The notes under the pieces are model-generated. The model was not told the DNA's origin. It made no database searches and saw nothing but the letters and a program-made list of their open reading frames with translations. A stretch of DNA of 24,671 nt, from the IMG/VR virus record IMGVR_UViG_3300009137_000006, positions 1 through 24,671 of that record; one strand, given 5' to 3'. Both the position numbers and the translations under genes were made by a program. Shown here piece after piece: positions 17,103 through 21,952 of the stretch. The number at the start of each line of letters is the position of its first letter. The first letter of the stretch is position 1. This DNA comes from a virus.

Positions 17103-18239
17103 TTACGGTTGATCGTCGGGTGATTGCGCCGCAGCGAGCACGGCCGCCCGAATCAACTGCGGCGACACTTTGGCGACTGATCCCGCTGCTCCATACGCCC
17201 CGCGTGCGAGCAGGGATTTGAACATCGGGCTGCGGTCAGCCAAGGCCGTCAGAAACGTCATTGGATTGTGCGTCACCCAGGCAAAACCGATCGGGTCACG
17301 ATTGCCAGACATGGCCACGCGGCGTCCCACCACATCGGCGGCTTGCAGGAGTTTTCCTTCACGGGCATTCAGGGCCGACACGGCGGGCACTTCAGTGGCA
17401 ATTTCCTCTTTCAGCCCACGCGCCAAGCCTTTCTGCGCTTCAATCGTTGCTGATTTGAGCTCGCCGTACTTCCCCGCGAGCTGGCGATACGTGCCCGTTT
17501 TCAACGCTTGCGCCTGTTCAATCGGTAAGCGGCTCCCACCATACGCCTCGAGGAATTCGTTGCCGACATCAGCTACCGCTCCGAGGTCACTGGCCGGATT
17601 GACTTGCTGGCTGACGTGTTGGGCGACGGGCGTCAACCGGGTGACGACGGCGTGAGGGCTAATAGTAGCAGTCGATCCGGCGAGCGCGTCTTTGATTTGC
17701 TCATTCGTCGCATCGATCAATGCGCCCAACTTGGCTTGTCCCGCTTTCGTGATTGAAATGCCCTCATCAAGCAAGGTTTTGACCAGTTGCGGCGTGCCGC
17801 CCGTCGCGCGCTTCGCTGCGGCGAGTGTCGGTTTGACGGCTGACTGCATCAAGCGAGTGCCGCCTGCTCGCAGCGCTGCGCCAGTGCCAAGGCCCACGGC
17901 TTCAGGGACAGCGCCTTGCCAGACACCTTCCTTTGCCACCGCTTGCACCGCTTCAAGCGGCGTGCTGGGTGCTGGGCGTCCGCGCGCACGATTGATGAGT
18001 TGCTTGTAGGCTTCTGCGCCACCGGCGCCAAACAGCCCACCGACGACCGTGCCACCAGGACCGAGCACGGAGCCGGTGAGGCCGCCCACAATCCCGCCAG
18101 CGACCGGCAGCTTATTGATGGCCCAATCCGCCCAACTTTCCGGTGTTTTCGGTGTCGGTGAAGGCGTCGGACTGACATCTTCGGCGCGAAAGGTTGTCGG
18201 CGCGTCGATCTCGGCGGCCGTGAACTTGACGGTCTGCAC
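17103..18239 (-). CDS. Putative DNA-ejection or internal virion protein with glycine-zipper segment
   Basis: GTG start at 18239-18237 shares one base with the TAG of the upstream gene. The 378-residue product has a Thr/Pro-rich start, then a glycine-rich hydrophobic stretch at about residues 46-75 (VAGGIVGGLTGSVLGPGGTV) able to enter membranes, and a long Ala-rich helical body. This composition is typical of podovirus internal proteins ejected ahead of DNA. It is the last gene of the - strand virion operon. Direct family identity is not certain. Confidence 0.65.
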   Translation of the reverse strand: MQTVKFTAAEIDAPTTFRAEDVSPTPSPTPKTPESWADWAINKLPVAGGIVGGLTGSVLGPGGTVVGGLFGAGGAEAYKQLINRARGRPAPSTPLEAVQAVAKEGVWQGAVPEAVGLGTGAALRAGGTRLMQSAVKPTLAAAKRATGGTPQLVKTLLDEGISITKAGQAKLGALIDATNEQIKDALAGSTATISPHAVVTRLTPVAQHVSQQVNPASDLGAVADVGNEFLEAYGGSRLPIEQAQALKTGTYRQLAGKYGELKSATIEAQKGLARGLKEEIATEVPAVSALNAREGKLLQAADVVGRRVAMSGNRDPIGFAWVTHNPMTFLTALADRSPMFKSLLARGAYGAAGSVAKVSPQLIRAAVLAAAQSPDDQP

Positions 18240-19819
18240 TATTTCACTCCGACGCCTTCGTAGCTGCCATCGGGATTGATTTTCGTCACCCGCAAGCGAA
18301 CGCCTTTGACCGTCACAATCTCACCGAGTTTCGGCGCTGGTGTCGCGGTGACTGTTGGCGTCGGTATCGGCGCGGGTGTGCTCGACAGGCCCGCCGCGCC
18401 GATACTCTCGATGGAGTTCTGTCGAATCTTCAGATTCGTGCGGGCGAGTTGAATGGCGCTGAGCAGTTGATCCTTCGTCCAATCGGCCGACAGGTTCTTT
18501 TGTGCGAGGCCGAGCGCATGATCGGTCGGGGAGTTGCCGCCCATGTAGACGTTGCCGAGTTCGGAGGTCACGTCGGTGATCTGGGCCTGGAGATTGGTCG
18601 CAATTTGCTGAGCCTTCGGGCCGAGGGCACCATTCACGGCGGCGGCGAGTTGAACTTTGTTCAGGATTGGAAACTTGCCGGCATCCCACTGCTTTGCCAA
18701 GTCTTCAATGACGCCTAGTGAGTCGGATGCTGTACTGATCGCTTGTCGGAGTCGCGTTTGCTGCGCGCCGTTCAACGTCGCGACATGCTTTTGGGCGGCT
18801 TGCCAGTCGAGATTGGCTTTGGTCAGATCGTATCCACGCTTGGAGAGTTCGGCGCGGACTGGACCAGCCATCCGATACAGCCCTCTCACATCAGGCGGTT
18901 GCAAGCCTTGCTCAATGGCATCCGCGATCGAAGCAGCATCGGTGGTTGTTTGCTGAAGGGTGACGGCTGATGCCGGCGGAATAGCTTTGACTTGGCCGGT
19001 GACATCTTTCCCTTGATACATCCACTTGCCGCCCGAGCCGTCTTTGTTCGGCACGTAATCGACGGGCACATCGCCGACGCCGGGCAAGCGCATCGTGTGG
19101 GTTTGCGACGGTGACGGCTTCTCAGGCGCCGTATAGATCGGTTGATTCGTGGTCGGATCCACCAACGTGCCGCCCGCGGGCACTTCGCGCGGCTTGATAC
19201 GTTCGCTCGCCCCTTTCGACTGCTGGATGTAGCGTGCTTTGACGGCCGTTCGCGCCTCGGGCGGCATCGACAGATTCCGATTCGCTTCCTCGCGCGTGAT
19301 CCACTGATTACGCGCCGCGACACCGTTGAAGACTTGCCAATCGCCCTCGTTGGTCACATCCAGGCCCACGGCGCTATTGCCCAGGCTTTCTCGGTTCTGG
19401 TCGAGTAACCGCCCGCGCAACTCCTGCGTCTTCGCCGCTTCCTCATTCCATTTCGTGCCCTGCTCCAAAATCTTCGGCACGTAATGGCCCATCTTGTTGG
19501 CTTGTGCAACCTTCGTGGCCTTTTCGATGCTGAAGTGGCCTTCATCATCCCAAATCGGCTGGCTCCAGACGTAATCGAGCGCGTCCTGCTCGCCTTGGGC
19601 GCGCTGCTCGCCGCGGAGGCGCAGGTCGGTGAGCTGTTGCTCGGAGGCCGCTTGCTGGTTCAACCGCTGCTCGCGCGACTTCAGCAGATTCTGCTCGGCA
19701 ACCTGCTGCGGGATCGCGCCGATGTTCTGGATGGCCTCTCCCCAAATTCGGCCACGTTCGCGCGCCGCGGCGGCTTGGGATTGGCCGTAAGCGGTGAGAA
19801 TTGCAGCGACATCACTCAT
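18239..19819 (-). CDS. Putative internal virion or ejection protein
   Basis: The 526-residue protein opens with helical, Gln/Ala/Arg-rich sequence (AILTAYGQSQAAAARERGRI and QVAEQNLLKSREQRL), consistent with coiled coils. A middle segment has GDVPVDYVPNKDGSGGKWMY, later helices follow, and a Pro/Thr linker precedes a small C-terminal beta domain (KLGEIVTVKGVRLRVTKINP). Such size and layout fit ejection proteins that travel with phage DNA. The ATG at 19819 is the first gene start on the left of the pentamer-array region. It ends with TAG. Confidence 0.65.
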   Translation of the reverse strand: MSDVAAILTAYGQSQAAAARERGRIWGEAIQNIGAIPQQVAEQNLLKSREQRLNQQAASEQQLTDLRLRGEQRAQGEQDALDYVWSQPIWDDEGHFSIEKATKVAQANKMGHYVPKILEQGTKWNEEAAKTQELRGRLLDQNRESLGNSAVGLDVTNEGDWQVFNGVAARNQWITREEANRNLSMPPEARTAVKARYIQQSKGASERIKPREVPAGGTLVDPTTNQPIYTAPEKPSPSQTHTMRLPGVGDVPVDYVPNKDGSGGKWMYQGKDVTGQVKAIPPASAVTLQQTTTDAASIADAIEQGLQPPDVRGLYRMAGPVRAELSKRGYDLTKANLDWQAAQKHVATLNGAQQTRLRQAISTASDSLGVIEDLAKQWDAGKFPILNKVQLAAAVNGALGPKAQQIATNLQAQITDVTSELGNVYMGGNSPTDHALGLAQKNLSADWTKDQLLSAIQLARTNLKIRQNSIESIGAAGLSSTPAPIPTPTVTATPAPKLGEIVTVKGVRLRVTKINPDGSYEGVGVK

Positions 19820-19855
19820 TTAATGCTCAACCGTTCTATGGTAAAGTGAGCGACG

Positions 19856-19882
19856 ACGGTGAGCGTTTTCCGCGCTCACCGT
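19856..19882. promoter_or_regulatory. Perfect 10-bp stem-loop between the array and the virion gene
   Basis: ACGGTGAGCG at 19856-19865 is the exact complement of CGCTCACCGT at 19873-19882, with a 7-nt loop. No U-run follows on either strand, so it is not a standard intrinsic terminator. It sits in the 5' leader of the - strand gene starting at 19819 and could bind a protein, stabilise mRNA or shield the gene from read-through. The stretch 19883-19945 between it and the array shows no gene I can support. Confidence 0.55.
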
Positions 19883-19945
19883 GTCTAACCACATTCCCCG
19901 CAGTTGGAGGCTGCGCGGTCGATGGCTGTCGAATCTTAGCAAATT

Positions 19946-20190
19946 CAGGTCGAGTGGGCTCAGGTATGGCCCGGTTTGGTCAGGTATGGTCAGGCGAGAT
20001 CAGGCATGGCAAGGCTTGGTATGCCAGGGTAGGCCGGGATTGGGCGGTGTGCGGTATGGCGCGGCAAGGTACAGCGAGGTTGGGTGTGACAGGGTTGGGT
20101 CAGGTATGGCGAGGCAGGGTTCGGTTTGCTCGGGTCAGGCACGGCTAGACGAGGTTCGGCAGGGTTCGCTTCGATGTGGCATGGCGTGGC
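19946..20190 (+). repeat. Upstream NNGGY pentamer array, 49 units
   Basis: Read in register from 19946, the DNA is 49 successive 5-mers with no insertion or deletion. All 49 end in C or T and 36 match NNGGY exactly, for example caggt, atggc, ccggt, ttggt; the others mostly change one of the two G positions. The first two bases are highly variable. Runs of seven perfect units lie at 19961-19995 and 20091-20125. The G-rich strand is the coding strand of the gene that follows. The array ends 20 nt before that ATG. A few more units ending in a pyrimidine trail off to the left. Confidence 0.95.
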
Positions 20191-20210
20191 TTTATTTGGA
20201 GGGTAGAGCG

Positions 20211-20861
20211 ATGGCACAAAACCAAGAGACTGAAATTGGCCCCGTTGACAATTCAGCAAAAGGACTCATCGCATTCGGCGAGCCGTACATGGTACGCGCG
20301 ATATTGGTCGGCGTAGCTGACATCTTGTTTCACCGATGGTCCGTAGAAGGCGTGGAAGCGAAGGGTCGAGCGGCGAAAGGATCAAAGGCGAAGCGTTCCG
20401 ACGATTTAGAAAGTTACGTATGGAGGGACGATCTCGGCCGACTGTGCGTGCCCGGTGAGTACGTCAGGCAATCAGTCATCAATGCGGCCAAGTTCCGACA
20501 AGATCCGCGCAGCCCGCGTAAGTCTGCAATGGACCTATACAAAGCTGGCGTCGTGTCACTCACGCATCTTGCGCCAGTGAATGCGAACGGCACGCCACTC
20601 GATGCGAAGCCACAAGCGTGGGATTACGAGCATCGGTGCCGGGTCACGGTGCAACGCAATGGCATCACGCGGACGCGACCGGCGATGAAAGCAGGTTGGA
20701 CAATCACTTGTGATTTTTTGATCAATTTACCGGAGTATGTCGCACCCGATGCGCTTCATGATGTCCTGGTCAACGCTGGCCGTCTGATCGGTCTGGCTGA
20801 TTTCAGACCGAGCTATGGCCGATTTGCCGTCAAGTCTTTCGAAGGATTGATCCTCGAATAA
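20211..20861 (+). CDS. Unrecognised protein encoded between two pentamer arrays
   Basis: ATG at 20211 has GGAGGG at 20198-20203, which decides the start; the same frame is open back to a GTG at 19881 through the array. The 216-residue product begins with a polar tail, then GEPYMVRAILVGVADILFHR, a basic Lys/Arg patch (about 50-63), WRDDLGRLCVPGEYVRQSVI, a central basic segment, and a conserved-looking end with AGRLIGLADFRPSYGRFAV. The Gly-rich C-terminal loop and the P-G-x(2)-[VI]-R helix recall RAMP/Cas7-like RNA-binding folds, but this is weak. It is the only + strand gene inside the - strand virion operon and looks like an inserted cargo gene. Confidence 0.85.
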   Translation: MAQNQETEIGPVDNSAKGLIAFGEPYMVRAILVGVADILFHRWSVEGVEAKGRAAKGSKAKRSDDLESYVWRDDLGRLCVPGEYVRQSVINAAKFRQDPRSPRKSAMDLYKAGVVSLTHLAPVNANGTPLDAKPQAWDYEHRCRVTVQRNGITRTRPAMKAGWTITCDFLINLPEYVAPDALHDVLVNAGRLIGLADFRPSYGRFAVKSFEGLILE

Positions 20862-20870
20862 CGACCAATT

Positions 20871-21185
20871 GCGGCTCGGCGTGGTGCGGTCGGTCTGGGT
20901 ACGGTTCGGCGTGGTGGGGCATGGTTAGGCTCGCTGGGACAGGACTTGGCACGGCGGGGTAAGGCTAGGTGGGATAAGGCGAGGTACGGTGCGGCATGGC
21001 CAGGTGTGGCAAGGTCGGATTTGCTAAGGCGTGGTAAGGCGTGGCGCACTCAGGCGGGCTAGGATTTGGTCTGGTTCGGCGGGGTGGGGCACGGTCAGGC
21101 AAGCTGTGGCATGGTGCGGTCGGATTAGGCGAGGCAAGGCTAGCTGCGGTGAGTTACGGCAGGATTCGGTATGGCATGGTATGGC
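20871..21185 (+). repeat. Downstream NNGGY pentamer array, 63 units
   Basis: Starting 9 nt after the stop of the cargo gene, 63 successive 5-mers run without an indel. All 63 end in a pyrimidine, 62 have G at the third position and 48 match NNGGY exactly. The longest perfect run is eight units at 20976-21015. The array stops 2 nt before the stop codon (complement of 21188-21190) of the convergent ejection gene. Its phase equals that of the upstream array: the 680 nt between them is a multiple of five. Unlike the upstream array it is broken by many stop codons in all frames. Confidence 0.95.
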
Positions 21186-21187
21186 CC

Positions 21188-21952
21188 TTATCCTCCATAT
21201 AAGGGTACGCTGGTTTTTGTGCTTTGTCCGGCTGAAAGTCCACCGGCGTACAAGTCTCGATATCGGTTCCAGGGATCTTGTGATTGGGTCAAGAAGTTTT
21301 CTTGATACTTTCTGAACGCCCTGTCATATGCTGCGCCGTATTCGCCGGACGCGTAGTCTTGCGCGTACCGATTCAAACTTTTCTGCGTGCCACCACTCAA
21401 AAGTGAACCCTGTGCGGCTGCGCTCCGTTCGAGGGCCTGTTGCCCCATGGCCATACGAGCTTGATAACCGGGCTCGGCTTGTAAGTCTGAAAGCGATGGA
21501 GCTTGGAACGGTGGCGGGATCGCGCCTGGTCCCGTGTAAGGACCACCGCCTGCCCCGCCTGCTCCTGCGCCACCAGCGCCCCCTTGGGGAATCCAAACGG
21601 GATGCCCTTCACCAAAACCGACGCGCACCCACTGCCCATTCGGGAGCTGGATCTTCGTCTGATCACCGACGGCGTTCGGCGGCGTGATCTTGAAGCCGTA
21701 TTGCTGCAACGTCGGAGCGAGTTCGTTGAAGGTCTGTTGATTCCACGGCCGATTCCCGACCAACTGCATGAACCATTGCTGTTCGTTGCCGGGTGTGGGG
21801 CCACCGCCGCCTGTCAACGCGCCGGATTGCGAGCCGTAGACGTTCGGCATGGTCGGTGAACCGGGTGTACCAGCGGTCTGCGTCTGCATGCGGCCCGCTT
21901 GTTGGCTCCACCAATCACTGCCGCCGTCCGTCAACGCGAATTGGTTCGGCAT
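21188..21952 (-). CDS. Putative ejection or internal head protein
   Basis: The ATG at 21952 lies 3 nt after the stop of the upstream gene. The 254-residue product has a Gly/Ser/Pro-rich first half with a strand segment (KIQLPNGQWVRVGFGEGHPV), a Gly/Ala linker near 123-140, and a C-terminal helical module with ARMAMGQQALERSAAAQGSL, SGGTQKSLNRYAQDYASGEY and DPWNRYRDLYAGG. This C-terminal pattern recurs in podovirus proteins that I associate with DNA ejection. The gene ends directly at the border of the pentamer array. Confidence 0.7.
   Translation of the reverse strand: MPNQFALTDGGSDWWSQQAGRMQTQTAGTPGSPTMPNVYGSQSGALTGGGGPTPGNEQQWFMQLVGNRPWNQQTFNELAPTLQQYGFKITPPNAVGDQTKIQLPNGQWVRVGFGEGHPVWIPQGGAGGAGAGGAGGGPYTGPGAIPPPFQAPSLSDLQAEPGYQARMAMGQQALERSAAAQGSLLSGGTQKSLNRYAQDYASGEYGAAYDRAFRKYQENFLTQSQDPWNRYRDLYAGGLSAGQSTKTSVPLYGG

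Follow-up and report, generated by a model that had tools for sequence, protein, structure and literature searches.

The window analysed here, the whole 24,671-nucleotide stretch of IMG/VR virus record IMGVR_UViG_3300009137_000006, belongs to a podovirus-like phage with P22-type portal and coat proteins. It carries a lone plus-strand open reading frame flanked by two minus-strand frames, with an array of NNGGY pentamers on either side of the lone gene (Table 1). The arrays are free of indels and hold exact register over all 112 pentamers (49 + 63); every fifth base is C or T and 84 pentamers match NNGGY exactly, so that a recount returned the figures of the original prediction. The arrays score 171.9 and 227.8, whereas the best of 200 base-shuffled versions of the whole window scored 25.3. 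The tight packing noted at the outset was also borne out by measurement: 20 nt lie between array 1 and the start of the gene, array 2 begins 9 nt after its stop, and 2 nt separate the end of array 2 from the stop of the neighbouring gene.

Table 1. Features of the locus, in window positions.
Feature	Position	Strand	Details
Neighbour gene beside array 1	18239..19819	-	526 aa; no family match
Array 1 (W1)	19946..20190	+	49 NNGGY pentamers, 36 exact; upstream of vipr
Possible guide, 8 pentamers (weak)	19956..19995	+	against homologues of the minus-strand neighbour 18239-19819; 14/16 NN in the L177 homologue
Guide W1, 12 pentamers	20121..20180	+	rival vipr genes, motif TDDLESYVWRND, antisense; 24/24 NN in L019
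vipr	20211..20861	+	Cas7/Csm3-like RAMP protein, 216 aa, PHROG 4652
Own vipr copy of W1 footprint	20397..20432	+	18/24 match; guide CT, TC and CG stand against own Leu TTA, Ser AGT and Arg AGG
Own vipr copy of W2a footprint	20721..20753	+	16/22 match
Array 2 (W2)	20871..21185	+	63 NNGGY pentamers, 48 exact; downstream of vipr
Guide W2a, 11 pentamers	20901..20955	+	rival vipr genes, motif VNLPEYIPPDV, antisense; 21/22 NN in L005, L006 and L069-L071
Guide W2b, 17 pentamers	21046..21130	+	ejection-like gene of L177, sense, decodes AQGSLLSGGTQK-x-IARY; 33/34 NN
Hairpin (CCCTTAT...ATAAGGG) directly 3' of array 2	21184..21206	+	possible 3' end or tail; fold z -0.36, no better than shuffles
Neighbour gene, DNA-ejection-like	21188..21952	-	PHROG 598; the carrier's homologue of the W2b target, predicted to resist the guide
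Own copy of W2b footprint, in 21188..21952	21365..21415	-	23/34 match; SLLS peptide kept

What does the lone gene encode? An AlphaFold model of the 216-residue product (28 homologues in the input) reached a mean pLDDT of 87, and its best matches among solved structures were Cas7/Csm3 RAMP subunits (Foldseek E 6e-7; VIA against Cas7/Csm3, Z 12.3, 171 residues, rmsd 3.8). The protein is thus modelled as a single-domain RAMP homologue with the Csm3/Cas7 fold, and it had no matching model in Pfam, NCBIfam or PADLOC. Its family, PHROG 4652, to which PHROG assigns no function, also contains AVU07_agp039 of Escherichia phage SUSP1; a profile match (E 2e-13) supports the same kinship, and AVU07_agp039 has GGY arrays on either side. 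From position and arrays, we identify AVU07_agp039 ourselves as the SUSP1 Vipr described in PMC13142463. The window gene is a vipr.

VIPR (Viral Interference Programmable Repeat) is an RNA-guided phage-against-phage system outlined in a 2026 preprint (PMC13142463), and a proposed ancestral cousin of CRISPR. As outlined there, a Cas7-like RAMP protein, Vipr, of about 20 kDa and a single domain acts with vrRNAs of 9–16 YNNGG repeats, whose NN dinucleotides read target DNA with one skipped base. The preprint has seven types, of which type II as characterised has vrRNAs of 9–16 repeats and a structured 3' tail, and a vap (vipr-accessory) gene is typical but not universal (PMC13142463). The view that no named element has this structure therefore gives way, since VIPR as described in that source combines GGY/NN repeats with a RAMP protein. 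In the window, no vap gene was recognised, vipr being the sole plus-strand gene between its two neighbours; one may lie elsewhere.

Array and gene are linked well beyond the window. Starting from the gene side, we found NNGGY arrays at 125 of 129 de-duplicated loci with a vipr homologue (SUSP1 left out), as expected if homologues of the 216-residue protein are enriched beside arrays; 98% of the pentamers lie on the vipr strand, and the longest uninterrupted array has 119 of them. In the relative L177, the same neighbouring genes are separated by 495 bp that contain neither array nor vipr, which agrees with the proposal that arrays and gene form one module. Over 6968 pentamers, position 3 is G in 96%, position 4 is G in 83% and position 5 is a pyrimidine in 94%, whereas positions 1 and 2 are nearly flat, a pattern that upholds the suggested selection on GGY and its spacing. 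Short-unit repeats do exist, and the arrays might in principle be a decaying microsatellite or a sequencing artefact. We give this a negligible probability because conservation is specific to columns and the window arrays are without indels, as the original prediction had argued, and because one gene family is associated with the arrays across many phages and, as set out below, the targets can be decoded.

No sigma-70 promoter was found near the window arrays, and no Rfam RNA, hammerhead included, had a credible match within the module (in 13 related loci the only Rfam matches were tRNAs). Imperfect pentamers, inspected by eye as possible unit boundaries, are not regularly spaced. A strong hairpin, CGGTGAGCG...CGCTCACCG, lies at 19855–19885 between the start of the minus-strand neighbour and array 1 (fold z −4.5 for 19840–19900).

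What do the NN bases read? For each of 323 arrays, we moved the NN bases stepwise along 130 loci, on both strands, and compared skips of 0, 1 and 2 nt. At a score of at least 16, a 1-nt skip gave 345 target matches, against 8 for skip 0 and 10 for skip 2. On these matches the NN positions form the guide and pair with target DNA at a skip of 1 nt, which corrects the idea that the first two bases vary almost freely, though their composition is nearly flat. The guides decoded in the window, W1, W2a and W2b, have rival vipr genes and a rival ejection-like gene as their targets (Table 1). W1 also matches L032 at 22/22 NN bases over 11 units, and W2b, whose best target lies in L177, a close relative without arrays, scores 21.5 in L178. 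When the order of units in the window arrays was shuffled, scores did not exceed 17, compared to 24 for W1, 19.5 for W2a and 31.5 for W2b. All three guides are in codon frame 0, so that the skipped base is the wobble position. Since W1 and W2a are antisense and W2b is sense to their targets, DNA fits better than mRNA as the target. In the perfectly matching guide W1, the second G of GGY is missing in 4 of 12 pentamers (20126, 20146, 20166 and 20171), so the NN bases appear to be held more strictly than position 4.

These matches also bear on whether the arrays are simply DNA or RNA binding sites for a structural or attenuation role of Vipr, following a TRAP-like NNGAG logic with the NN bases as mere spacers. 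The conserved phase of GGY and the nearly flat NN composition would suit such sites, but the order of the NN bases matches rival genes at one skip only and the match fails once that order is shuffled, and we regard this explanation as very improbable. For about two thirds of the window pentamers we found no target in a search made mainly in VIPR loci and in relatives of this phage, so that targets elsewhere would be missed. When viral contigs were scanned for exact 9-NN patterns from three other array stretches, two had no match and the third matched L208, but not beyond the searched units; a 3-mismatch search of 16 rival records with another array stretch gave none.

The carrier has its own copies of the targeted genes, and these match less well (Table 1). 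In the ejection gene of the window, the peptide AQGSLLSGGTQK is retained while all four S-L-L-S positions use the other codon family, and vipr shows codon-family switches at L, S and R of the W1 footprint. More generally, the own copy matched worse than the rival copy in 21 of 21 guides compared, as a rule at 60–78% of NN bases; this comparison favours the rival, for which the top value out of many was set against a single own value. Among conserved Leu/Ser/Arg codons, 15 of 33 were switched inside footprints and 101 of 502 outside (Fisher p 0.0014). The excess comes mostly from the window phage (8/9), the remainder (7/24) being unremarkable, and because the loci are in addition partly related, it is suggestive but not settled. 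The window copies are thus predicted to escape their guides, in part by Ser/Leu/Arg codon-family switches that keep the protein.

Alternatively, the arrays could be autoregulatory, targeting the carrier's own neighbouring gene with an imperfect match that tunes repression. The arrays do adjoin their own target homologue, and as a rule match it at 60–78% of NN bases; this residual match, however, follows from the homology of own and rival genes. The rival copy was the better one in every comparison, with differences as large as 24/24 versus 18/24 and 33/34 versus 23/34, and codon switches in the own footprints exceed the background. Autoregulation is therefore unlikely.

Are guides placed at random with respect to the genes that they target? 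At scores of at least 18.5, the own target homologue lay within 60 bp of the guide's array in 20 of 20 blocks of this clade, and at scores of 16–18.4 within 250 bp in 14 of 15; the blocks are not all independent, several being drawn from related loci. Skip-0 and skip-2 controls at scores of at least 16 gave no block beside an own homologue. Besides vipr, the targets include genes whose translations we read as helicase-like, DUF669-like, ATPase and ParB-like. A prediction of this adjacency rule was set beforehand, namely that the far end of array 1 reads homologues of the minus-strand neighbour: eight units there match the L177 homologue in codon frame, a result equalled by 4 of 400 order shuffles. 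Homologues of the 526-aa gene were found only in the near-identical contig L209 and one distant relative, L210, and because they are so few the prediction was tried mainly on L177.

We lean towards the view that each guide of this clade sits in physical linkage with a target homologue of the carrier that resists it. Resistance would arise partly by Ser/Leu/Arg codon-family switching, the chief synonymous way to evade a code in which the wobble base is skipped. Arrays of this kind would be cassettes that link attack to a resistant allele and drive allele replacement among co-infecting phages. The linkage, which is absent from the main text of PMC13142463, suggests an organising rule that may be new. 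If true, the rule would explain how guides can be directed against conserved genes without self-silencing, make array targets predictable from neighbouring genes and tie VIPR to phage marker exclusion.

Taken with the structural model, these results make it very probable that the window contains a VIPR system on a podovirus-like phage: a Cas7-like Vipr and arrays with guides against rival phage DNA, the carrier's own copies matching worse. The features that define VIPR at the sequence level (RAMP protein, GGY/NN arrays, 1-nt skip code, rival targets) were all found in the module. As far as the preprint describes SUSP1, the two systems have in common a RAMP protein from one and the same PHROG, a gene flanked on both sides by GGY/NN repeats, a 1-nt skip at the codon wobble position and targets in competing phages. 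They differ in that SUSP1 has units of 9–16 repeats with a 3' tail, whereas the window guides are packed in 49 and 63 uninterrupted pentamers and target homologues of array-adjacent genes; the lack of a recognised vap gene in the window is a further difference. The decoded guides of 11, 12 and 17 pentamers are embedded in these long arrays, seemingly without separate SUSP1-like 3' tails, which is a point against the VIPR reading; array 2 is followed only by a weak hairpin. Staggered arrays whose vrRNAs overlap are also mentioned in the preprint (PMC13142463), and the window arrays may be of that type. Based on metagenomic phages, the decoding independently confirms a code first reported in 2026 and makes an otherwise anonymous array readable.

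How might the module act? By analogy with SUSP1, transcripts of the arrays would yield vrRNAs, to which Vipr would bind, presumably with a single subunit on each pentamer; the resulting complex would bind rival DNA and block transcription. The effect is likely repression rather than cutting. Guide and resistant allele would be passed on as a unit, and in mixed infections the carrier could silence the vipr and ejection genes of the rival without impairing its own. Attack linked to resistance has a counterpart in phage marker exclusion, where free-standing homing endonucleases (SegF-type intronless homing) are coupled to a resistant version of the gene that they attack in a co-infecting relative. 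The window module is not a member of that class: it is RNA-guided, with several guides per locus, and a nuclease was not seen. With Cas7/Csm3 of Class 1 CRISPR-Cas it shares the RAMP fold, a glycine-rich loop motif near the C terminus and a guide RNA with periodic unpaired bases, but it has a pentamer code guide and a single small protein. Membership of Class 1 CRISPR-Cas was rejected, as the module consists of pentamer arrays and one RAMP gene, without CRISPR repeats or other cas genes.

Several other loci have arrangements of their own. On contig 3300009012_000009 (L176), past the right end of the window, a third array of 22 pentamers (323–432) lies on the strand opposite vipr, closely preceded by TATAAT and directly followed by a strong intrinsic terminator (fold z −4.9); by its sequence it looks like a stand-alone vrRNA gene. 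In Phage DSL-LC04 (L037, 7710–7962), three short arrays precede vipr; the inverted repeat CTTAGTGGGGC...GCCCCACTAAG encloses the middle one, and a terminator-like hairpin comes after the last. The downstream arrays of L030 (1158–1686) lie on the strand opposite vipr, unlike those of nearly all other loci. Finally, a single cyanobacterial contig of a Stenomitos rutilans MAG carries two vipr genes about 100 kb apart (L118 and L119), which have the same identity to the query.
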